Of a stretch of 33,759 nt of DNA, positions 1 to 27,998 are shown in pieces. Under the pieces are notes generated by a model. That model made no database searches and was not told the origin of the DNA. It saw nothing but the letters and a program-made list of their open reading frames with translations. The DNA is from Ignavibacteria bacterium (lineage in GTDB: Bacteria > Bacteroidota > Ignavibacteria > UBA10030). A program made the translations under genes and the position numbers. Positions within the stretch are counted from its first letter, which is position 1. Each line of letters opens with the position of its first letter. The stretch is taken from NCBI GenBank assembly GCA_016873755.1, contig VGWB01000015.1:1-33759 (forward strand), in the 5' to 3' direction.

Positions 1-2515
1 TCTGCGGCATCCATGTGTGTCCGCCATCTGTCGTGCGAAGAATCGTGCCAGATTTCCCCACGGCTGTTCCAGTGTTGGTATCGGTGAACCAGACGCCGTA
101 CAGAAGATCCGTCGTCCTACTGTACTGGCGATACCACCACTTACCTCCGTTGGTCGTCCGCAGAATAATCCCGTCGGAGCCGACGATGGTTCCGGTGTTT
201 GCATCGGTGAAGGAAACCGCCCGCAGGGAACTCGCCGGACCTCTGATCTGAGATACCCATGTGGCGCCTCCGTCAGTGGTTCGGTAGATGGCTCCACCAT
301 TGCCCACCAGTGTTCCCGTGCTGCTATCTGTGAAGCAAATCCCATAGAAATTCACCGTCGGCTCGAGGGAGCGCACATTCCAGGTTGCGCCACCGTCGCT
401 GGTCTGGACAAGTGTGCCCGAATTCCCAACGGCGCTTCCCCTTTTCGCGTCAATGAACCAGACCGACCGGAGATCCGCGTTTGTCATTGCTATCTGGCGG
501 GTCCATGTCTGCCCACCGTTCGTGCTTTTGGCAACCGTGCCAAAGTCCCCGACTGCGAACAAGTTATTCTCATCGACGGCATAGAGAGCCCTGAGATCGA
601 CCCATTGCTGCACCGGACTCTCCCAGGTCCACAGCTTATGAGGAACAAGCATCGGCTTCGCGAGCTCAGCAACGGTTGTCAGCATCAGCTGCGCCGCCCT
701 GCGCATCAGTCCCGGATGGAGCTTGTCGACGGTGTCCGTCGGCTTGTGATAATGGGGATTGCCACCTCCCCAGATTTCCGTCGGAGTGCCTTCGCTAACC
801 TCAAGCGCATCATAGCCTGCCATTGCGAATGGTCCGTAATCGCTTGCACCAGTGCTGTCGACAAAGGGATCGAGCGTTGCTCCGATGCCGTAGCGCAAGT
901 TGTAGACGAGTGCCGAGTCAACCATCCAATTCCGCGCGAGGTAACTGCCGACGACAAGTCGTGTTGTGTCACCTTTCAGCGGATAGGCAATCATGTCGCC
1001 GTTCACGACACCGATGATTGGCCTGTTTTCGCCTCGTGCACGGGATGCGTATTCCTCACTTCCCATCATCCCGAGTTCTTCACCCGAAACAGCGATGAGC
1101 TTGATCGTTGATTCAAACTGGTAGTTTGTGAGAATTCGTGCGGCTTCCATCATGGCACTCGTCCCGCTCGCATTATCATCTGCACCCGGGGAATTGTTGC
1201 CACTGTCGTAGTGTGCGACCAACACACACTCCCTCTCCGGCGTCACGAGACCGGGGATAGTCACGACGATGTTGCGAGAGGTATGTAAAACATCCGGCGG
1301 AAGGCTTGGCGTTCTGCGAACCCACGTGGCTCCTCCATCTGCACTCACCGCCAGGGCCCCATGGCTGCCACAACTAAGCAAATTCTTGGAACCGAGAGCT
1401 TTTATCCTTCCCAGGCCAATCCAACCATAACGCCGGAGAGGATCGATCCTCGTCCAGCTCTGGCCACCATCAGTTGTTCGCAGGACGCTACCGGCGTAAT
1501 CTGCAGTCCACCCCGAAGCACTATCAGTGAAACACACATCATACAGATAGCGAGCGGACGGGCGTTCCCGGGCAAGGGGTGGGGCTGGAAGAGCTCTCCA
1601 CGTTGCGCCACCATCGGTGGTTGTCAGGACCGTTCGATAGTCCCCCACCGCCCAGCCCAGGCGGGAACTGGTAAAATCGACTGCGTAGAGGTTAGCTTGC
1701 ACGCCCGAAGACTGACGCGTCCACGACACGCCCCCGTCGGTTGAGCGTATGATTGTACCTCCGTAGCCCACAGCCCACGCGTTCGAGGAATCAACCAGTT
1801 CCACCTCTTTCATCGTGGCTCCGCCGACTGGATTCGAGGCGTGCCACGTCGTTCCGCCGTCGCTTGTGCGAAGTATTGTTCCGGAGGCTCCAACAGCAAG
1901 TCCAACTCTCTCGTTCGCAAAGGAGATGCCGTTGAGAGTGGCTGACACGCCTGAATTCTGTGAAACCCACGTCTTGCCCCCGTCGGTGGTCTTCATAATC
2001 AGTCCCCCATACCCAACGACCCAGCCGGTGTTCTCATCCACGAAGTCGACACCGTAAAGTGCCTGACTTCCGCCCGCCGGTGACTTTTGCAGGGACCACG
2101 TCGAACCACCATCGGTGGTTGTGAGGATCGTTGCTCCCGTACCGACGACCCAGGCCCGATTCTGGCTGATCACTTCGAGATCGTAGAAGGTCTGTGCGCC
2201 AAACGCATACCATTCAGATTCAGCCTTTACCCCCCGCCGGTTCAGTTCATCGACTATCCAATCCGCTGCCGCTTCCTGCTGCGCAGAATATTCGTAACGA
2301 GGGCCAAATCCCTGGAGCGCCTGAACGTTTGCCATCAAATTGCTGCTGGAGACAGCATTGACCATTTGCTGAATCAGTGCGTGCGTGTCGGTATTCCTGC
2401 TCGGTGAGGACGGAAGATGTGACGTCCGTGGTTCGGGTTGTTGAGCTTGGGGATGGGAAATGGAGGGGGCGCTGAGCATCAACAGACCGACGACAATGCT
2501 GCTCTGGCGGGTCAT
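1..2515 (-). CDS. Secreted M28 metallopeptidase with nested Ycf48-type propeller (3' end beyond window)
   Basis: Reverse-strand reading frame open from ATG at 2515 to the left edge (838 codons, no stop), preceded by AGGGAGGT six bases upstream. Residues 1-24 are a signal peptide. Residues about 50-110 look like the N-terminal helices of an M28 peptidase domain. Residues 111-400 then hold seven Ycf48/BNR-like repeats, each ending in a DGGxTW/SW motif (135, 178, 219, 260, 301, 349, 393). The M28 core resumes at about 412. Visible metal ligands are H435 (AHYDS), D446 (GADDNASG), E479/E480 (GEELG), D507 (NGDMIAY) and H590 (HYHKPTDT). From about 640 a second block of the same repeats starts (motifs near 667, 708, 748, 789, 830) and runs off the window. 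Family knowledge: M28 enzymes are zinc aminopeptidases; Ycf48-like propellers mediate protein contacts. Probably exported and possibly surface-attached; a C-terminal sorting domain could lie outside the window. Substrate unknown. Confidence 0.93.
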   Translation of the reverse strand, partial: MTRQSSIVVGLLMLSAPSISHPQAQQPEPRTSHLPSSPSRNTDTHALIQQMVNAVSSSNLMANVQALQGFGPRYEYSAQQEAAADWIVDELNRRGVKAESEWYAFGAQTFYDLEVISQNRAWVVGTGATILTTTDGGSTWSLQKSPAGGSQALYGVDFVDENTGWVVGYGGLIMKTTDGGKTWVSQNSGVSATLNGISFANERVGLAVGASGTILRTSDGGTTWHASNPVGGATMKEVELVDSSNAWAVGYGGTIIRSTDGGVSWTRQSSGVQANLYAVDFTSSRLGWAVGDYRTVLTTTDGGATWRALPAPPLARERPSARYLYDVCFTDSASGWTADYAGSVLRTTDGGQSWTRIDPLRRYGWIGLGRIKALGSKNLLSCGSHGALAVSADGGATWVRRTPSLPPDVLHTSRNIVVTIPGLVTPERECVLVAHYDSGNNSPGADDNASGTSAMMEAARILTNYQFESTIKLIAVSGEELGMMGSEEYASRARGENRPIIGVVNGDMIAYPLKGDTTRLVVGSYLARNWMVDSALVYNLRYGIGATLDPFVDSTGASDYGPFAMAGYDALEVSEGTPTEIWGGGNPHYHKPTDTVDKLHPGLMRRAAQLMLTTVAELAKPMLVPHKLWTWESPVQQWVDLRALYAVDENNLFAVGDFGTVAKSTNGGQTWTRQIAMTNADLRSVWFIDAKRGSAVGNSGTLVQTSDGGATWNVRSLEPTVNFYGICFTDSSTGTLVGNGGAIYRTTDGGATWVSQIRGPASSLRAVSFTDANTGTIVGSDGIILRTTNGGKWWYRQYSRTTDLLYGVWFTDTNTGTAVGKSGTILRTTDGGHTWMPQ

Positions 2516-17973: not shown

Positions 17974-19128
17974 TCAGAACTGAACCGGGATTGTGAGTCC
18001 TAGCGTCACAACATGGTTGGTGTAGTGGTAGAAGGGATCGTTCGAAGTGTTCGTGATGGAATCGTAGCGAAGGACGACGGAGAGATGAAGTGGCTCGATC
18101 TCCTTTTCAACTTGAATGGCCAAGAAGCTCCGTCTATCCGCGCGCGTGTCGGCGACCTGATTGCCGATGAGGTCATAGGCTGGCAGGTTGGTGTATTCCC
18201 GGTCTTGCATGCCGTAGGTGAGGCGGACTTTCATCTCAAGAGGAAGAAGCTGAGTCAGCATGACGCTGCGGAGTAAGCCTTCGTACCCGTAATGATCGTC
18301 GAAGATCTCGTCATCGGAGACCGCGCCGTATGCAGAGGAGAGATAGCGTGAGTCTTTCCGCAGATTCCGCTGGTAGTTCAACGTCAAGCTGAGACCCGTT
18401 CCCTCGAAGATCGACTGGCCAACTTTGAGAAGTCCGGATAACTGCGCAACCGATGGGGTCGATTGTTCCACCCGTTGCCCACCGCGCCCCATCATTCGAC
18501 CGCCGAAACCTGCACTTTCGCTGATGTCGGGTGTTGCATAGATCTTCGAGCCAATGTCGCTCTGAAGGATAACGGAGGTTTGAGTTTCGAGAAAAGTCGT
18601 CAGCTTGAGTGTTCCCTGATGCTCGATGTAGTCGAAATCTCCGAGTTGGCTGAAAGTGAACGAGCGGAAGGTGTAGCTCGCTTGGCCGAGCATTGTCTCA
18701 GCGAACGAGTGCTTGATGCCAATTGACGCACTTAGTTGATGGTGGTCATAGAACGCAAAGGCGTTGCGGTCCAAGCGCTTGCCGTACATGAACCCGGCGG
18801 CGAAGAGACTCTCATTGTCCTCTCCAAAAGACTTCTCGAACTCCAGCCCTGTCGCATGGTACTGGAAGGTCCGATCGGCAACCATGCTAAAATACTGCAG
18901 CGAGGCCACGTAATACAACTGTGTCAAACTCGATTCTGTCTCCCAGTCATATCCAAGCCGCAGACTCGAAATCGCAATTTTGTCACCTTCAGTGCGCGAG
19001 TTGTTGAACACGTTGTCGTCATACGTTACCGTGACGTCTGTTTCGAATCTGAATTGACCAGTCGCGGTGTTCACGGAGGCTAAGAGCGACAAGGTCAAGA
19101 GGAACAAGCCGCAGGCGCGTTGTTTCAT
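17974..19128 (-). CDS. Outer-membrane beta-barrel protein
   Basis: 384 residues; ATG at 19128 has GGAGGAG six bases upstream and overlaps the stop of the preceding small-protein gene (ATGA-type overlap). A signal peptide (residues 1-24, ending near ATGQ) is followed by alternating hydrophobic/polar strands about ten residues long throughout, and the chain ends in LGLTIPVQF with the terminal Phe typical of BAM substrates. One unusual loop is Gly/Met/Arg-rich, GFGGRMMGRGGQRVE (about 203-217). The fold fits a 14-18-strand barrel; family identity is not recognisable. By position it is the third gene of the minus-strand arm facing the cytochrome genes, and the histidine kinase follows 137 bases later. 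Confidence 0.85.
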   Translation of the reverse strand: MKQRACGLFLLTLSLLASVNTATGQFRFETDVTVTYDDNVFNNSRTEGDKIAISSLRLGYDWETESSLTQLYYVASLQYFSMVADRTFQYHATGLEFEKSFGEDNESLFAAGFMYGKRLDRNAFAFYDHHQLSASIGIKHSFAETMLGQASYTFRSFTFSQLGDFDYIEHQGTLKLTTFLETQTSVILQSDIGSKIYATPDISESAGFGGRMMGRGGQRVEQSTPSVAQLSGLLKVGQSIFEGTGLSLTLNYQRNLRKDSRYLSSAYGAVSDDEIFDDHYGYEGLLRSVMLTQLLPLEMKVRLTYGMQDREYTNLPAYDLIGNQVADTRADRRSFLAIQVEKEIEPLHLSVVLRYDSITNTSNDPFYHYTNHVVTLGLTIPVQF

Positions 19129-20307: not shown

Positions 20308-20363
20308 AATCCTCAAAGTTGCTCAAGGTCTTCCGCAGATCATTCCACTGGAGGACATTCCTC

Positions 20364-21719
20364 ATGAAACGAAGGTTGATGCTGTTAACACTCATCCCGT
20401 TCTTGCTTCCAACACTCTTGCTGGGGCAGGAGAAGAAAGCGGGAGACGAAGCTCTCGGCTCACGCAAGTATGCGGACTACGAGAAGCCGGAGGTGTGTGG
20501 AACATCGTGTCACACGGATTTCTACCAGCAGTGGAAACAGGCGATGATGTCGCAGGCCTATACTCATCACTGGGACGAGATCGAATACTTCAAGCTGGCC
20601 GTACCGCATGCAGAGAAGGATCCCAAGGTAGCGGGAGTCAAAGCCGGCTGCAACGGTTGCCATTCACCGATAGCTTTTCTGGCAGGTGATGTGCCGCCGC
20701 CGAAGCCGGAAGCCGGGAGTCGAGCAAATGAATCCGTATCGTGTGATGTTTGCCACACGATCACCGGCTTCAAGGGTGACACACCGTATAACTTCAACTA
20801 CATCTCGGAGCCTGGCCGCGTGAAATACGGTCAGCGGGAAGGTGCAATCTCGCCGGCGCACGAGACAAGGAAATCAGAATTCATCAGGACCACGGAGTTC
20901 TGCGGTACTTGTCACAACGAGAAGAGCCCGTACGATGTTTGGGTCAAATCGACTCAACTGGAGTGGAAAGAAGGTCCGTACTCCAAAGAAGGTGTTACAT
21001 GCCAGACTTGTCATATGACCTATGCGAAGGGACGCAACGCTTCGATGGGTCCGGAGCTTGCCGATGTCGCCCAGCATCTCTTCCACGGTGCGCACGATCC
21101 GGGAAAGATCCGGGGCACGATTGAAGTGCGGATTCATCCTGACATACGGGAAGTTGAGCCTGGCGATCGCACGAGGTTCACTGTTGTGCTCTTCAATCAG
21201 AAGACGGGTCACAAGTTTCCAACGGGTTCGGCTGAAGAGCGTCTCGTCTGGCTACACGTCGAGGCGACAGATGCCAAAGGAAACGTGTATCACTTGAAAG
21301 TGGACAAGAAAGGTTTCCCGGACGAGGAATACACGATTGCCGCGAACACGCTCGCGTATCAAGACATGGGGATTCCTCTGGGGATTGTAGACTTCAAAGG
21401 CGTTCAGCGCGACGGCGTTCCGGAAGGCGACCGCATTTTCCGCCTGCCCTATCTCGATCCCCAGGGGAGGATGACGATCATGCAGTGGAACACGGCATCG
21501 CTGGCGACAGATTACCGTATCGGGCCGAGAGAGACAAAGATTGAGACATTCACGTGGACCGTCCCGGACGAGGCAGCACCGGGTCCGCTCGTCGTCAAAG
21601 CTACGCTCAATTACCGGAAGCTTCCGATGCCGATTGTCGAATTCCTCGGTGTTCCGGAGGAAGAGGCCGAGATCATCGAGGTGAATTCGCACCAGACCAC
21701 TGTGACCGTTCTCGACTGA
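20364..21719 (+). CDS. Five-heme cytochrome c, c554-like, periplasmic
   Basis: 451 residues from ATG at 20364 with GGAGG nine bases upstream. Signal peptide residues 1-21. Four CXXCH motifs bind heme covalently: C96-H100 (CNGCH), C127-H131 (CDVCH), C180-H184 (CGTCH), C213-H217 (CQTCH). The first site is CGTSCH (45-50), a CX3CH variant at the place where cytochrome c554-family proteins have their first CXXCH, followed by the typical TDFYQQWKQAMMSQAYTHH. Residues about 230-451 form a heme-free beta-rich domain that includes QKTGHKFPTGSAEERL, whose His could be a distal heme ligand, as in related multiheme proteins. It should move electrons in the periplasm; partners and substrate are unknown. 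The porin-cytochrome gene follows 42 bases later, so the two are probably one operon. Confidence 0.92.
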   Translation: MKRRLMLLTLIPFLLPTLLLGQEKKAGDEALGSRKYADYEKPEVCGTSCHTDFYQQWKQAMMSQAYTHHWDEIEYFKLAVPHAEKDPKVAGVKAGCNGCHSPIAFLAGDVPPPKPEAGSRANESVSCDVCHTITGFKGDTPYNFNYISEPGRVKYGQREGAISPAHETRKSEFIRTTEFCGTCHNEKSPYDVWVKSTQLEWKEGPYSKEGVTCQTCHMTYAKGRNASMGPELADVAQHLFHGAHDPGKIRGTIEVRIHPDIREVEPGDRTRFTVVLFNQKTGHKFPTGSAEERLVWLHVEATDAKGNVYHLKVDKKGFPDEEYTIAANTLAYQDMGIPLGIVDFKGVQRDGVPEGDRIFRLPYLDPQGRMTIMQWNTASLATDYRIGPRETKIETFTWTVPDEAAPGPLVVKATLNYRKLPMPIVEFLGVPEEEAEIIEVNSHQTTVTVLD

Positions 21720-21761
21720 AGCAGTGCACCATATTCAACGCATAGGTGAAAGGATTTGACC

Positions 21762-22922
21762 GTGAGAACTTTTGTCAGTTTCCTGCTGCTCCTGGCCGTA
21801 AGCATCGTGGTGATGACGGAAGAGAGCTCCGCCATCCCGGCCTTTGCTAGGAAATACAGGATGTCCTGCAATGTGTGCCATTCGCCGTTCCCCAGACTCA
21901 AGCCATACGGAGATGAGTTCGCCGGCAACGGCTTCAGTTTGAAAGACAAGGAGCCACCCCGGTACACGGTCGACACGGGCGATGAGCAGCTCCAGCTTCT
22001 GCGCGAGATACCTCTCGCGCTACGGCTTGAAGGCTACGTCCGGTATCAGCCCCAGACTGCTCGTCGATCTGATTTTCAGGTGCCGTACCTGGTCAAGCTC
22101 CTCTCCGGCGGACAAATTGCGAAGGATGTTGCGTACTACTTCTACTTCTTCTTTGGAGAACGGGGCGAGGTCGCCGGACTCGAGGATGCGTTCATCATGT
22201 TCAATGATGTTTTCGGGAGCGAGCTCGATGTGTATCTGGGGCAATTCCAGGTATCAGACCCGCTGTTCAAACGTGAACTGAGGTTGACGTTTGAAGATTA
22301 TCAAATCTATCGAACGAAGGTCGGCGCTTCCTCGGTCAATCTCACGTATGACAGGGGGATCATGCTCACGTACGGACTCCCGACAAAAACGGATATTGTG
22401 GTTGAGATCCTCAACGGCAGCGGCATCGGTCAGGCCGATCCGAGCCGCAACTTCGACAACGACAAATACAAGAATGGTCTGATACGAATTTCACAGGATG
22501 TCGGTGATGTCTTCCGTGTCGGGGCGTTCGGATACTACGGAAAGCAGGAAAGAAACGGGTTTGTCAACGAGTCAACCATGTGGGGACCCGACTTGAGCGT
22601 CTCGCTCGATGCCGTGGAACTGAACATGCAGTACGTCACCAGAACCGATGACCGACCATACTTCGCCGTTGCGACGGCAAAACAAAGGACGGAAGGCGCA
22701 TTCGCTGAGCTGATCTATACCCCCGAGGGAGACAAGAGCACCTGGTATGGCGTTCTCCTGTATAACTGGGTGAAGGCGGGCGATGTGGCCCTGAACTACA
22801 GGAGCTTTTCTGCCCACGGCGGTTACTTGTTGGGAAGCAATTTCAGGCTTATGGGGGAATACACGTATGACATCGAGCGGAAGGGCAACCGATTCACGAT
22901 GGGCTTTGTGACCGCTTTTTAG
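21762..22922 (+). CDS. Outer-membrane porin-like barrel with N-terminal c-type heme motif
   Basis: 386 residues from the GTG at 21762, chosen over a TTG at 21756 because GAAAGGA then lies seven bases upstream. A signal peptide (about 1-24) is followed at once by IPAFARKYRMSCNVCHSPFP, with C36, C39 and H40 forming one heme site, and then RLKPYGDEFAGNGF. The rest (about 70-386) alternates beta-strands of a barrel (ALRLEGYVRYQP, DVYLGQFQVSD, NLTYDRGIMLTYG, LNMQYVTRTDD) and ends in MGFVTAF with a terminal Phe. Barrels with this heme plug motif occur in many bacteria with outer-membrane electron transfer. The pairing with a multiheme periplasmic cytochrome suggests a conduit through the outer membrane; this is inference, since one heme cannot span it alone. 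Confidence 0.88.
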   Translation: MRTFVSFLLLLAVSIVVMTEESSAIPAFARKYRMSCNVCHSPFPRLKPYGDEFAGNGFSLKDKEPPRYTVDTGDEQLQLLREIPLALRLEGYVRYQPQTARRSDFQVPYLVKLLSGGQIAKDVAYYFYFFFGERGEVAGLEDAFIMFNDVFGSELDVYLGQFQVSDPLFKRELRLTFEDYQIYRTKVGASSVNLTYDRGIMLTYGLPTKTDIVVEILNGSGIGQADPSRNFDNDKYKNGLIRISQDVGDVFRVGAFGYYGKQERNGFVNESTMWGPDLSVSLDAVELNMQYVTRTDDRPYFAVATAKQRTEGAFAELIYTPEGDKSTWYGVLLYNWVKAGDVALNYRSFSAHGGYLLGSNFRLMGEYTYDIERKGNRFTMGFVTAF

Positions 22923-23280: not shown

Positions 23281-24645
23281 CTAATGCCCTTTCCATTTCT
23301 TGAGGCGATACCGCAAATTGCGCTCAGAAATGCCAAGCTCAGCTGCTGCTTGGGATTGATTGCCGCTGGAGCGTCGGAGAGCCTCAAGTACCAACTCCTT
23401 TTCCAACTGCTCAACGCGTTCCGGCAGGCTCGTCGGCTTCTGGAGAGCTGCAAGCTCCTTTTCACCTTTTCGTTCCTTCACGATTGCAGGCAAGTCGTTC
23501 GTCGTGATCGTTTCGCCGCGGGAGAGGATCACTGCGCGCTGAACGATGTTCTGCAGCTCCCGTACGTTTCCCGGGAAATCGTACCGCAGCAGGAGTTCCC
23601 ACGCCTCCCTGGAAAATGCGGTCTTCTTGCGCTTGTTCTCGTGTGCATACCGCTGCAGGAAGTGTTCGAGAAGCGGAGGGATGTCTTCGCGCCGGTTCCT
23701 GAGGGGCGGTAGATCAATTGCGACGACATTGAGTCGATAGAAGAGATCCTCTCGGAAAGATCCCAGTCTGATCATCGATTCCAGATCCTTGTGGGTAGCG
23801 GCAATGACGCGCACGTCGACCGAAAGCGTCTCTGTTCCACCGACCCGCTCAAACTGTTGCTCTTGGAGAACGCGAAGAAGTCGAACCTGAGTCGAGAGCG
23901 GGATATCACCGATCTCGTCGAGGAAAAGCGTGCCTCCGTCAGCAGCTTCGAAGCGACCCTGACGCTGTCTGTCCGCCCCCGTGAATGCCCCTTTCTCGTG
24001 GCCGAAAAGTTCACTCTCCAGGATATTCTCGTTGAGTGCGGCGCAGTTCACTGCGACAAAGGGCTTTTCCTTCCGGGCGCTGGCGAAATGAATCGCTTTG
24101 GCAACCAGCTCTTTCCCGGTGCCGCTCTCGCCGCGAATCAGAATGGGGGCTTTGCTCAGTGCGACACGCCCGGCGGTATTGAGAGTGGCTTCCATCGCCG
24201 CGGACTGGGAGATGATCCCAGCGAATGAGAAACGCTCGGCCAACTGCTCTTTGAGAAGCCGGTTCTCCGAAATCAACCGGCCGCGCTCCTTGATCCTCTG
24301 GATGAGAAGATCGAGCTCCTCGAGATCGATCGGCTTAGTCAGGTAGTCGTACGCGCCCTCGCGCATAGCCGCGACGGCGCCTTCGATGGTGCCGAACGCC
24401 GTCAAGAGAACGACCGTGATCTCGGGGTTGAGCGCATGGGTTTCTTTCAGAAGGTCGAAGCCCGTCCGGTCCGGCATCTTGTAGTCTGTGAGGACGATGT
24501 CCATGGCGCGGTTCTTGAGCGTTTCGATTGCCTGGGAGGCTGAGCCTGCCTCGTAGACGGCGTGGCCGTGTTTCTTCAGATACCCGGCAAGGATGCCACG
24601 CTGAATGGGCTCATCGTCAACGATGAGAATGGTGGTGGCTTGCAT
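23281..24645 (-). CDS. Sigma-54-dependent response regulator, NtrC family
   Basis: 454 residues, ATG at 24645 with GGAAG upstream. Receiver domain 1-120 with phospho-acceptor D54 (VLTDYKMPD), acidic pair D10/D11, T82 and K104 (LTKP). AAA+ domain with Walker A GESGTGKE (172-179), the sigma-54 contact loop GAFTGA (219-224, intact), Walker B FLDEIGD (241-247) and GNVRELQN. Fis-type helix-turn-helix at the C-terminus ([20 protein letters not shown]). The intact GAFTGA loop means it should activate sigma-54 promoters. The only histidine kinase here of the matching type is at 15812-17836, and candidate -24/-12 elements lie between them. It follows the OsmC gene by 56 bases and may be read from the cyd operon. 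Confidence 0.95.
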
Positions 24646-24701
24646 TGTTCTTCCATGGAAGGCAAGGGGCGCGTGGAGAGTCTGCCACTGTCCGCCTAAG
24701 G

Positions 24702-25157
24702 TCAGCTTGCAGGCTGGGCCTCTGCCGGAACTCTGGCCGACGACTCGATGCGGTACGAATGTGTGATCGGCGCACTGGCGCTCAGGATGGCGCTCACGGA
24801 GCAGTACTTCGTTGTCGATAATTCAATGGCTCGCTCGACGTCTGCGGATTTGATTCCATCTCCATAGAAGATGTACTCCACGTGAATCTCCGTGAAGATA
24901 CGTGGGTGATCTTCTCGTTCCTTTCCGGTGACACGAACTTCATATCCCTGAAGCGGGACGCGCTTCTTCTTCAGGATCGGAACCACGTCGCTCGATGTGC
25001 AGCCGGCGAGGGCCATCAGGAGTAGCTCCTTCGGTGCAGAACCGGCCAGGCTCCCGCCGAAGTCCGGTGATCCATCCATCACGACCCAGTGATTTGTGCC
25101 GCCTTTGGCGACAAAGGTAATACCTTGAACCTGTTTGAGAAATACCTCTTTCGTCAT
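24702..25157 (-). CDS. OsmC-like peroxiredoxin-type protein
   Basis: 151 residues from ATG at 25157 with AAAGGA eight bases upstream. OsmC/Ohr superfamily pattern: FGGSLAGSAPKELLLMALAGCTSSDVV with the first redox cysteine, and the second cysteine in ELSTTKYCSVSAIL. Such proteins reduce organic hydroperoxides, or in some subgroups remain of unknown role, in the cytoplasm. This one resembles the YhfA-like branch of short OsmC proteins. It lies between a small membrane protein and the response regulator on the strand that carries the cytochrome bd genes. Confidence 0.88.
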   Translation of the reverse strand: MTKEVFLKQVQGITFVAKGGTNHWVVMDGSPDFGGSLAGSAPKELLLMALAGCTSSDVVPILKKKRVPLQGYEVRVTGKEREDHPRIFTEIHVEYIFYGDGIKSADVERAIELSTTKYCSVSAILSASAPITHSYRIESSARVPAEAQPAS

Positions 25158-25206
25158 TGCTGTTGTCCTTTCGGGGCTATCGTAGCCTCCTGTAAGTACC
25201 ACTTCG

Positions 25207-25404
25207 TCACGATCGCTGCTTCGATGCTCGTTTCTTTGTCCAATAACGGATGGAAAGTATGAGTGGACATGAGCGACCGAGATTCGTCACGCCGAGAAAG
25301 ACACCCACGATGGAGAGAGTAATTGCATATTCGCTCTCTATGAGACCGGCCAGGCCCGCGATAAGCAAGAACGCGGACAGAAGGAATAGACCCATCTTCA
25401 CCAT
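25207..25404 (-). CDS. Small two-TM membrane protein, possibly DUF2892-like
   Basis: 65 residues from ATG at 25404; a GTG at 25410 and an ATG at 25395 are alternatives, and none has a strong ribosome site. Two hydrophobic helices (MGLFLLSAFLLIAGLAGLIE and ITLSIVGVFLGVTNLG) are followed by SCPLILSIRYWTKKR. The order TM-TM-CPL resembles DUF2892 (YgaP membrane part), as in the clearer member at 28530. Gap of 77 bases after cydB and 49 before the OsmC gene, so probably the same transcript. Function unknown. Confidence 0.65.
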   Translation of the reverse strand: MVKMGLFLLSAFLLIAGLAGLIESEYAITLSIVGVFLGVTNLGRSCPLILSIRYWTKKRASKQRS

Positions 25405-25481
25405 TGACACTGCATTTATTGGAATCTCGGCGCTCTTCCTATTGGATGCAGCGTCCCGGGAAAAGGCTCATGACGAACACT

Positions 25482-26528
25482 TCAGTAGCCGGCATCCTCG
25501 GCAGGAAGCACGACCTTGCCTCGGAATGCTCTGTAAACATAAATGAAATATCCTGCCGCGAGAACCATTCCTACAATCCACCAGACCAGGCCTACGTTCA
25601 GTCCATACGCTTGCGCCGCGGTGTTGTAGATCGTGAGGCTGTTAGATGGGTCTATTGAAGAGGGAAGGAGGTTTGGGTACAGTCCGAATGCCGTGCTAGC
25701 CAGCATCCCCGCGATGAATGTTGTTGATGAGAGGAACGCCCGCGTGTCCTGCCTGCGCACGTTGAAGATGATCATTCCTGCAAGTCCCAGCACTCCCAGC
25801 ACGGGGAAGATGTAGCCCCAAGGGTGCTCCGTGAAGGTCGTCCAGATCTCCGGCTTGATTGATGAGGTTGCGATCAAGCCGACGACGGACGTCACAAGAA
25901 CGCCCCACCACGCTTTGCCCGCAATGGACCGGGATCTTGTCTGGACTTCCCCATCCGTTTTCATCGCGATGTAGTTCGCACCGTGTGCCGTAAGGGTGAA
26001 GAAGGCAACCAGGCCAAGAACAACCGTAAACCAGTCGAGGATCCCGGACTCGGGAACGACCGTGAACGTTGTCCAGAGCGGCTCGAAGAAGTATCCATCG
26101 CTGTTCAGGGGTACCCCGCGTACGATGTTGCCAAGCGCTGCGCCGAAGAAGACGGCGAGGAGAATGCTGGCGAAGGAAAAGGCAGAGTCCCAGAACCGCT
26201 TCCACAAGGGATTGTGAACCTGATGCCGGAACTCGATGCCGAGACCTCGAAGCATCAACAGCCAGAGAATGATGATGAGGGGAAGGTAGAAGCCGCTGAA
26301 ACTGGATGCGTAGACTTGTGGAAACGCGAAGTATAGTGTCCCGCCTGCTGCAAGGATCCAGACTTCATTTCCATCCCACACCGGACCGATGGCGTTCAGA
26401 GTGAGACGGCGTTCATTCTCTGTTCTTCCTACAAGGAGGTGAATGATCCCGGCGCCGAGGTCAAAGCCATCGAGTATGACGTACATCGTCAACATGAAGG
26501 CCACCAAGATAAACCACAACGTCTCCAT
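25482..26528 (-). CDS. cydB: Cytochrome bd ubiquinol oxidase subunit II
   Basis: 348 residues, ATG at 26528 with AAGGGAG six bases upstream. Multi-span protein with the CydB signature motifs YVILDGFDLGAGIIH, AIGPVWDGNEVWILAAGG, FRHQVHNPLWKRFWD and VNVGLVWWIVGMVL. It forms the second subunit of the quinol:O2 oxidoreductase that conserves energy at low oxygen and helps tolerate peroxide, nitric oxide and sulfide. Located 92 bases downstream of cydA in the same orientation. Confidence 0.96.
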   Translation of the reverse strand: METLWFILVAFMLTMYVILDGFDLGAGIIHLLVGRTENERRLTLNAIGPVWDGNEVWILAAGGTLYFAFPQVYASSFSGFYLPLIIILWLLMLRGLGIEFRHQVHNPLWKRFWDSAFSFASILLAVFFGAALGNIVRGVPLNSDGYFFEPLWTTFTVVPESGILDWFTVVLGLVAFFTLTAHGANYIAMKTDGEVQTRSRSIAGKAWWGVLVTSVVGLIATSSIKPEIWTTFTEHPWGYIFPVLGVLGLAGMIIFNVRRQDTRAFLSSTTFIAGMLASTAFGLYPNLLPSSIDPSNSLTIYNTAAQAYGLNVGLVWWIVGMVLAAGYFIYVYRAFRGKVVLPAEDAGY

Positions 26529-26620
26529 AGTTACTCCCTTGTTAAATCGTGTTGGGAAGAAACGAAAAGTGTCTCTTCCGGGAAATCACGTTGTATTCCT
26601 GAAGACTCCTTCATCAACCC

Positions 26621-27955
26621 CTAGTGTGTTGCCGCACCCGATTCCGGCCCCTGATTGATCTTCTTGATCACCAGCAGCAGGAACAAGACGCCGATGACGA
26701 AGTACATGCCAAGAAATCCGAGCAGCGTAAAAAGACTGTTTCCCGCAGAAACTGTAGGGGAAATGCCATCGGCGGTGCGCATCAGGCCGTAGACAAGCCA
26801 CGGCTGGCGACCCAGCTCCGCTGTCATCCAGCCCGCAGTGTTGGCGATATACGGGAACGGGAAAGCGAGCATCAGGATCCAGAGAACCCAGCGCGTAGCA
26901 TACAGCTTTCGCTTCCAGAGGAGAAAAACTGAGACGAGCATAATCGCGATAAAGATTGTCCCCAGCCCCACCATGATATGGTAGCTATAGTAGAGAAGCG
27001 GCACGTTCGTCGGCCACTCGTCACGTGGGAAAGCCTGCAAGCCCTTCACCTCGGCTGTCCAGCGATAATGCGTCAAAAAGCTCAGGAGTTTCGGGACATA
27101 CAGCGGGTTGTCCATGCGGAGCTTCTCCATGTCGGGCTGGCCGATCAGCATGAGCTCGGCTCCTTCCTTTGTTTCGAAGAGCCCCTCCATCCCGGCGAAG
27201 GTCACGGGTTGGTGCTTGTAGACGTTCTGGACCTGTCCGTCGCCTGTCGGAAATGCCACGAGAAGGGATGCAATGGCTCCCGCAACGACGCCGGTGCGGA
27301 TGAAGATCTTGCCGTACTCCGCGTCTCGGTTCGCCAGAAGATAGTACGCGCCGACAGCAGCCATCACGAAGGCGGCAGTGATGACGGCTCCGATCATGTT
27401 ATGCGTGTACTGCCAGCCGATCCACGGGTTGAACAGCAAGCCCCAGTAGTCGTTCACGTGGACCGAGCCATCCGAGGCGATTGCATATGCAACCGGGTGT
27501 TGCATCCATGCGTTCGTAGCGATGATGAAGTACCCGGAGACCCACGATCCGAGGAAGACAAGAAACGCTGCTGCAAAATGTCCGGCCTGTCCCAGTTTCT
27601 TCTCGCCAAAGAGAAAAAGCCCGAGAAAGGTCGATTCCAGGAAGAAGGCGAAAACCCCTTCCATAGCCAGAGTCTGGCCGATGACGCCGCCGGCAAATGT
27701 CGAGAACTTTGCCCAGTTCGTGCCGAACTGGAACTCCATCGGGATGCCAGTCACGACCCCGACCGCGAAATTAATGGCAAAGATCTTCGCCCAGAACCGC
27801 GCGCTGACGTTGTATCGCTCGTCCTTCTTCCAGAGCGACAATCCCTTGAGGATCACGATCAATAGGCCCAGTCCCATCGTGAGTTGAGGGAACAGGTAAT
27901 GGTACATGATCGTGAAGGCGAATTGGAGCCTGTTGATGAGCAGGGCGTCTTCCAT
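26621..27955 (-). CDS. cydA: Cytochrome bd ubiquinol oxidase subunit I
   Basis: 444 residues from ATG at 27955; an in-frame upstream start exists but MEDALLINRLQFAFTI is the normal beginning of the family. Heme ligand His in TIMYHYLFPQL, the quinol-site pair in VYKHQPVTFAGMEGLFET (Lys and Glu), and the GRQPW motif (AELGRQPWLVYGLMRT) are all present. The protein is about 75 residues shorter than E. coli CydA and lacks the long insertion in the Q-loop, so it belongs to the short Q-loop (bd-II/CIO-like) group. With CydB it forms the membrane terminal oxidase that reduces O2 to water with quinol. Confidence 0.96.
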   Translation of the reverse strand: MEDALLINRLQFAFTIMYHYLFPQLTMGLGLLIVILKGLSLWKKDERYNVSARFWAKIFAINFAVGVVTGIPMEFQFGTNWAKFSTFAGGVIGQTLAMEGVFAFFLESTFLGLFLFGEKKLGQAGHFAAAFLVFLGSWVSGYFIIATNAWMQHPVAYAIASDGSVHVNDYWGLLFNPWIGWQYTHNMIGAVITAAFVMAAVGAYYLLANRDAEYGKIFIRTGVVAGAIASLLVAFPTGDGQVQNVYKHQPVTFAGMEGLFETKEGAELMLIGQPDMEKLRMDNPLYVPKLLSFLTHYRWTAEVKGLQAFPRDEWPTNVPLLYYSYHIMVGLGTIFIAIMLVSVFLLWKRKLYATRWVLWILMLAFPFPYIANTAGWMTAELGRQPWLVYGLMRTADGISPTVSAGNSLFTLLGFLGMYFVIGVLFLLLVIKKINQGPESGAATH

Positions 27956-27990
27956 CACGTTAGCCTTGAATGGTGGATAATCTCCGACCG

Positions 27991-27998
27991 CCAAGATA
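27991..27998 (-). promoter_or_regulatory. Candidate -7 box TATCTTGG for cydAB
   Basis: TATCTTGG on the minus strand, 36 bases before the cydA ATG; GCTATCTTGG is identical to the box before the M28 gene. The 5' side is T-rich. No clear TTG element at the expected distance. Confidence 0.4.

Follow-up and report, generated by a model that had tools for sequence, protein, structure and literature searches.

In several M28 peptidases, including the Bacillus subtilis enzyme BSAP/YwaD (PDB: 6HC6), an Aneurinibacillus aminopeptidase (PDB: 2EK8), PaAP (PDB: 8AC7) and glutamate carboxypeptidase II, a PA domain is placed between the N-terminal helices and the catalytic core. In BSAP this domain spans residues 101–225; its deletion left activity towards Leu-pNA similar while changing activity towards peptides, and the authors propose that it hinders substrate access (PMC3954873). 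The Vibrio proteolyticus leucyl aminopeptidase (PDB: 1AMP, 3B3T) has the same catalytic fold with no insert in this loop. A comparable arrangement is found in the S9 family (prolyl oligopeptidase and acylaminoacyl peptidase), where an N-terminal element packs on the catalytic domain and both ends of a propeller lie within that domain; in prolyl oligopeptidase the propeller is unlatched and hides the active site (PMC3574126). Ycf48, the namesake of the PSII_BNR propeller family, is by contrast a stand-alone photosystem II assembly factor. The S9 catalytic domain is a serine alpha/beta-hydrolase that is not homologous to M28, and the S9 propeller is not of the Asp-box/Ycf48 kind. A 2009 survey of Asp-box propellers makes no mention of peptidases (PMC2716378), and in the open-access literature that we searched we found no report of an M28 domain that contains an Asp-box propeller.

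Here we analyse a protein, P0001, in which these elements are combined. It is encoded at one end of a 33,759-nucleotide stretch of DNA (“the window”) from an Ignavibacteria bacterium (GCA_016873755.1, contig VGWB01000015.1). The open reading frame lies on the minus strand and runs from an ATG at window position 2515 to position 2, giving 838 readable amino acids. Window position 1 is also position 1 of the contig, and the gene is truncated there, so that the number of C-terminal blades is a minimum and a secretion tail, if there was one, is missing; when we sought the 3′ end of the gene by overlap within the same genome, no overlapping contig was found. The preliminary description of this DNA had proposed an order of M28 helices, propeller, M28 core and more repeats, and this order was borne out, with the minus-strand orientation and the contig-end truncation added here. 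The N-terminal leader (residues 1–24, window 2444–2515, minus strand; MTRQSSIVVGLLMLSAPSISHPQAQ) looks like a Sec signal peptide, as judged from its sequence alone.

The inserted propeller occupies residues 107–405 (window 1301–2197, minus strand) and was delineated by Pfam, a motif scan, AlphaFold and structure comparison. A Pfam search returned a match to PSII_BNR (Ycf48; PF14870) at 201.8 bits, against a cut-off of 27 (E = 1.9e-59), and the structure of Ycf48 (PDB: 5oj5) matched the propeller with an E-value of 6.7e-19; the Ycf48 equivalog model (NCBIfam PRK13684) gave a score of 205.2, below its cut-off of 326. The PA domain (PF02225) was absent from P0001 by Pfam, the loop between strands β1 and β2 being occupied by the propeller instead. 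The motif scan placed seven Asp-boxes at residues 135, 178, 219, 260, 301, 349 and 393, which, together with the seven sets of four strands in the structural model, agrees with the earlier count of seven repeats (then placed at 111–400). Shuffled sequences of the same composition contained a mean of 0.007 Asp-boxes and never more than one, so the repeat array did not arise by chance. After the M28 core come at least five further Asp-box blades (residues 640–838, window 2–598, minus strand; Pfam and motif scan), as had also been claimed, with Asp-boxes at residues 666, 707, 748, 789 and 830, a spacing of 41, and this array is ended by the contig end. The C-terminus of P0001 is missing; in its relatives, a Por_Secre_tail domain (PF18962) was found above cut-off in the nested homologue L026 and below threshold in the own-genome paralogue L024 and in the Coatesbacteria protein L072.

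The M28 catalytic core comprises residues 412–625 (window 641–1282, minus strand), as defined by Pfam, alignment and structure superposition. Peptidase_M28 (PF04389) matches residues 415–614 at 116.2 bits, against a curated cut-off of 21.3 (E = 1.9e-33). All five metal ligands previously claimed for this core were identified by alignment on the minus strand: H435 (window 1211–1213, with D437 two residues further), D447 in the motif GADDN (1175–1177), E480, which follows the catalytic base E479 (1076–1081 for the pair), D507 (995–997) and H590 in the motif YHKPTDT (746–748). P0001 is most likely an active, secreted di-zinc M28 aminopeptidase. Across the nested set the catalytic residues were intact in 22 of 26 alignment rows and lost in three, with one further row left unassigned. 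The most frequent residue had a mean share of 0.73 in the core versus 0.58 in the propeller, which is the pattern expected of a conserved enzyme carrying a more variable recognition module.

Since the PF04389 match begins only at residue 415, the domain match taken by itself would fit a simpler layout, in which the propeller is merely N-terminal, residues 50–110 are part of the propeller or a linker, and nothing is nested. The sequence upstream of the propeller argues strongly against this. Residues 42–106 (window 2198–2392, minus strand) form an M28 N-terminal segment of three helices and the first strand, with the motif LQGFGPRYEYSAQQEAAADWI, as defined by alignment, AlphaFold and superposition; R73 within this segment is conserved in 26 of 26 nested rows and 41 of 43 plain M28 rows. 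When the propeller is excised, residues 46–105 and 412–621 align without a break with the Vibrio aminopeptidase 1AMP from its residue 15. The same holds for dozens of plain M28 proteins from Aminicenantes, Acidobacteria, WOR-3, Bacteroidota, Chloroflexota and other groups, which run unbroken across the P0001 junction, while two Coatesbacteria loci are interrupted at that very junction. This comparison set and the two Coatesbacteria loci came from a contig scan with core patterns common to all M28 peptidases, in which the matches listed did not include close relatives of P0001. In the resulting alignment of 38 rows, the N-terminal and core columns are mostly filled in the 35 plain M28 proteins, which have residues in only 8–20 of the 295 propeller columns, whereas the two Coatesbacteria rows occupy 267 and 274 of them. 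At the junction itself, the plain protein L034 reads ...AESDPFSFESYYQSKNIVAVIPG..., where P0001 reads ...AESEWYAFG, the propeller and then ...HTSRNIVVTIPG....

Structural models point the same way. An AlphaFold model of P0001 (mean pLDDT 89.9, pTM 0.81; model numbering is the residue number minus 39) contains, in order, helices 3–15, 18–30 and 39–54, strand 59–67, seven sets of four strands, strand 371–381 and the remainder of the M28 fold. Using VIA-align, 271 residues of the model, in the range 1–583, were superimposed on the Vibrio structure 3B3T with an rmsd of 2.1 Å (Z = 37.9), and known propellers superposed on the range 67–366. A Coatesbacteria protein, modelled separately (pLDDT 88.0, pTM 0.66), has the same layout, with 264 residues superposing on 3B35 at 2.0 Å. 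In both models the seven four-strand blades are contiguous in sequence and stand between two M28 strands; this would correspond to the unlatched propeller of prolyl oligopeptidase (PMC3574126). Residues 50–106 fold with the 412–625 core, the superposition running from the first model residue, as the preliminary description had suggested for its residues 50–110. With the 1AMP alignment, the dozens of plain M28 proteins and two models that superpose from the N-terminal helices onwards, we reject, as far as sequence and prediction go, a merely N-terminal propeller, and regard that layout as very improbable indeed. Based on these sequence comparisons and models, it is near certain that a seven-bladed propeller is nested in the M28 loop between strands β1 and β2.

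A search for homologues with the same nested order recovered them both in the window's own order and in Coatesbacteria. Of 98 genomes of the order, 9 have a match that covers the nested part from end to end, the source genome having two; in the distant phylum Coatesbacteria (that of L072), matches were found in 14 of 14 genomes, with up to 12 per genome. No further nested group was found among 391 genomes of the class and 395 of the phylum, using strict cut-offs and scoring three candidates per genome. When nine Coatesbacteria loci were inspected, eight had an M28 domain split in two by Asp-boxes, the ninth being an open reading frame without the N-terminal part. The source genome is fragmented (376 contigs, 4 Mb) and the gene lies at a contig end, which might raise the suspicion of an artefact of assembly or gene fusion that brought together a peptidase gene and a Ycf48-like one. 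However, the parts occur in the same order in the own-genome paralogue, in eight other genomes of the order and in all 14 Coatesbacteria genomes, and we therefore reject a chimera, which now has a negligible chance of being the explanation. Rather, recurrence in related bacteria and in all Coatesbacteria genomes searched marks the nested design as a genuine, conserved enzyme layout. The source genome has 24 M28 matches in all, two of them nested with propellers and one with PA and PDZ domains. A search of a plasmid collection gave no match, and two weak propeller-only loci on viral contigs (33% identity) were left out of the analysis.

In a tree of the M28 part only, the nested proteins of the window's order form one clade (support 100/99), which adjoins plain M28 proteins of Ignavibacteria, Balneolota, Poribacteria and Latescibacterota, while the Coatesbacteria nested proteins form a separate clade. 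We therefore favour two origins of the propeller insertion on the basis of this sequence tree, although a single clade for all nested proteins is compatible with the data (p-AU 0.178 in one test and 0.068 in another). Several individual loci vary the theme. One Coatesbacteria genome (G403) carries at least six nested copies (at L072, L150, L151 and L154), some of them in tandem, together with a plain M28 gene (L155). L031 (G021:C11) is a nested homologue in which hydrophobic N-terminal segments, probably membrane-spanning, replace the signal peptide, and it has no secretion tail. L026 (4654–8778, G009:C76), a nested homologue of 1375 amino acids, has a much longer C-terminal run of Asp-box blades, together with a type IX secretion tail; it is probably inactive, as its catalytic Glu is replaced by Lys and its last metal-binding His by Leu. 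In L153 (G025:C305:29000-36000), from a genus-mate of a nested homologue, a linker of about 17 residues takes the place of the propeller between the M28 halves. It has one in-frame TGA at the start of the core, and may represent a natural loss, a pre-insertion form or possibly a pseudogene.

What, then, might the propeller do? In the P0001 model, strand 371–381 pairs through a four-residue turn with strand 386–396, residue 396 being the zinc ligand H435, while the other linker comes after strand 59–67, the first strand of the M28 sheet. Because β2 is hairpin-paired with β3, which ends at H435, the two linkers would both emerge from the peptidase at the edge of its active site, and the propeller is expected at the active-site mouth. 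The return of the chain from the propeller opposite H435 is deduced from strand order in the model, and confidence in the domain orientation is indirect, coming from the pTM values (0.81 for P0001 and 0.66 for the Coatesbacteria protein). In the reading we prefer, to which we give a probability of roughly 0.55, P0001 is secreted and active as an aminopeptidase, and its propeller selects or presents peptides at the active-site mouth. Two short linkers would tie the propeller to the active-site edge, where it could bind and present peptide N-termini and limit entry, in an action akin to that proposed for PA domains at the same M28 site and to that of the prolyl oligopeptidase propeller; the extra C-terminal blades and, judging from relatives, type IX secretion-type tails would keep the enzyme extracellular or surface-bound.

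A gate is not the only role that such a module could have. Ycf48-type propellers are binding modules, Ycf48 itself holding the C-terminal tail of D1 (PMC10403576), and the propeller might similarly serve to dock or target the enzyme, whether to a binding partner, to a polymer at the surface or to the secretion apparatus, with little effect on access. L026, which lost both the base and the last His, and L149 and L150, which lost the last metal His, have kept the propeller, which suits a binding role as well as a gate, and P0001 has additional blades at its C-terminus, outside the peptidase. Plain docking, however, needs no particular insertion site, whereas strand order puts this one next to the active-site edge in two distant groups; we consider docking the main alternative, if not one we would expect to prevail. 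That the site is simply permissive, so that a propeller acquired by chance was tolerated there with no selected role of its own, appears improbable. The same site does take a PA domain, as in the own-genome protein with PA at residues 136–243 and an M28 core from 289, and the propeller-free linker of L153 would also suit a dispensable insert. Nevertheless, the two inserts that were modelled come from groups separated by a deep divergence, and each is complete with seven blades; moreover, all of the Coatesbacteria genomes searched have the design, frequently as numerous copies.

Compared with the PA-containing M28 enzymes, P0001 thus shares the catalytic fold, the ligands and the position of the extra domain, and differs in the nature of the insert. 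With Ycf48 it shares the propeller family and fold; prolyl oligopeptidase would be its counterpart in the way in which the propeller is held, but the catalytic domain of P0001 is that of M28, not the S9 serine peptidase domain; and the Vibrio enzyme, whose loop has no insert, is the closest solved fold over its whole M28 part. The components and the insertion principle are each known, and an Asp-box propeller in M28 is a new combination within the literature searched. The nesting had been called unusual beforehand, which holds for the Asp-box propeller, none having been found described in M28 in the literature searched, but not for insertion into the loop as such, for which the PA domain is a precedent; prolyl oligopeptidases, in an unrelated fold, hold a propeller in a comparable way. 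The recurrence and the Coatesbacteria expansion make this more than one odd gene: they point to a large Coatesbacteria peptidase family without description in the searched literature, and one M28 loop emerges as a place where accessory domains, both PA and propeller, have entered the fold more than once. P0001 also offers a second case, in a peptidase fold unrelated to S9, of a propeller that seems to be held as in prolyl oligopeptidase, making substrate filtering testable by comparison. Going further, a metallo-aminopeptidase lineage may have arrived by convergence, perhaps on two separate occasions, at the prolyl-oligopeptidase plan, with an unlatched seven-bladed propeller, anchored in the catalytic domain at both ends, opening and closing over the active site and, in Coatesbacteria, a phylum-wide multi-copy family of secreted peptidases; this we put forward tentatively, as a somewhat unlikely extension.

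Elsewhere in the window, genes for cytochrome bd oxidase subunits I and II adjoin an OsmC-like gene and a sigma-54 response regulator (23281–27994, minus strand). Two sizeable open reading frames have no Pfam match (17974–19128, minus strand, and 21756–22922, plus strand), the latter following a multihaem cytochrome-like gene at 20319–21719.
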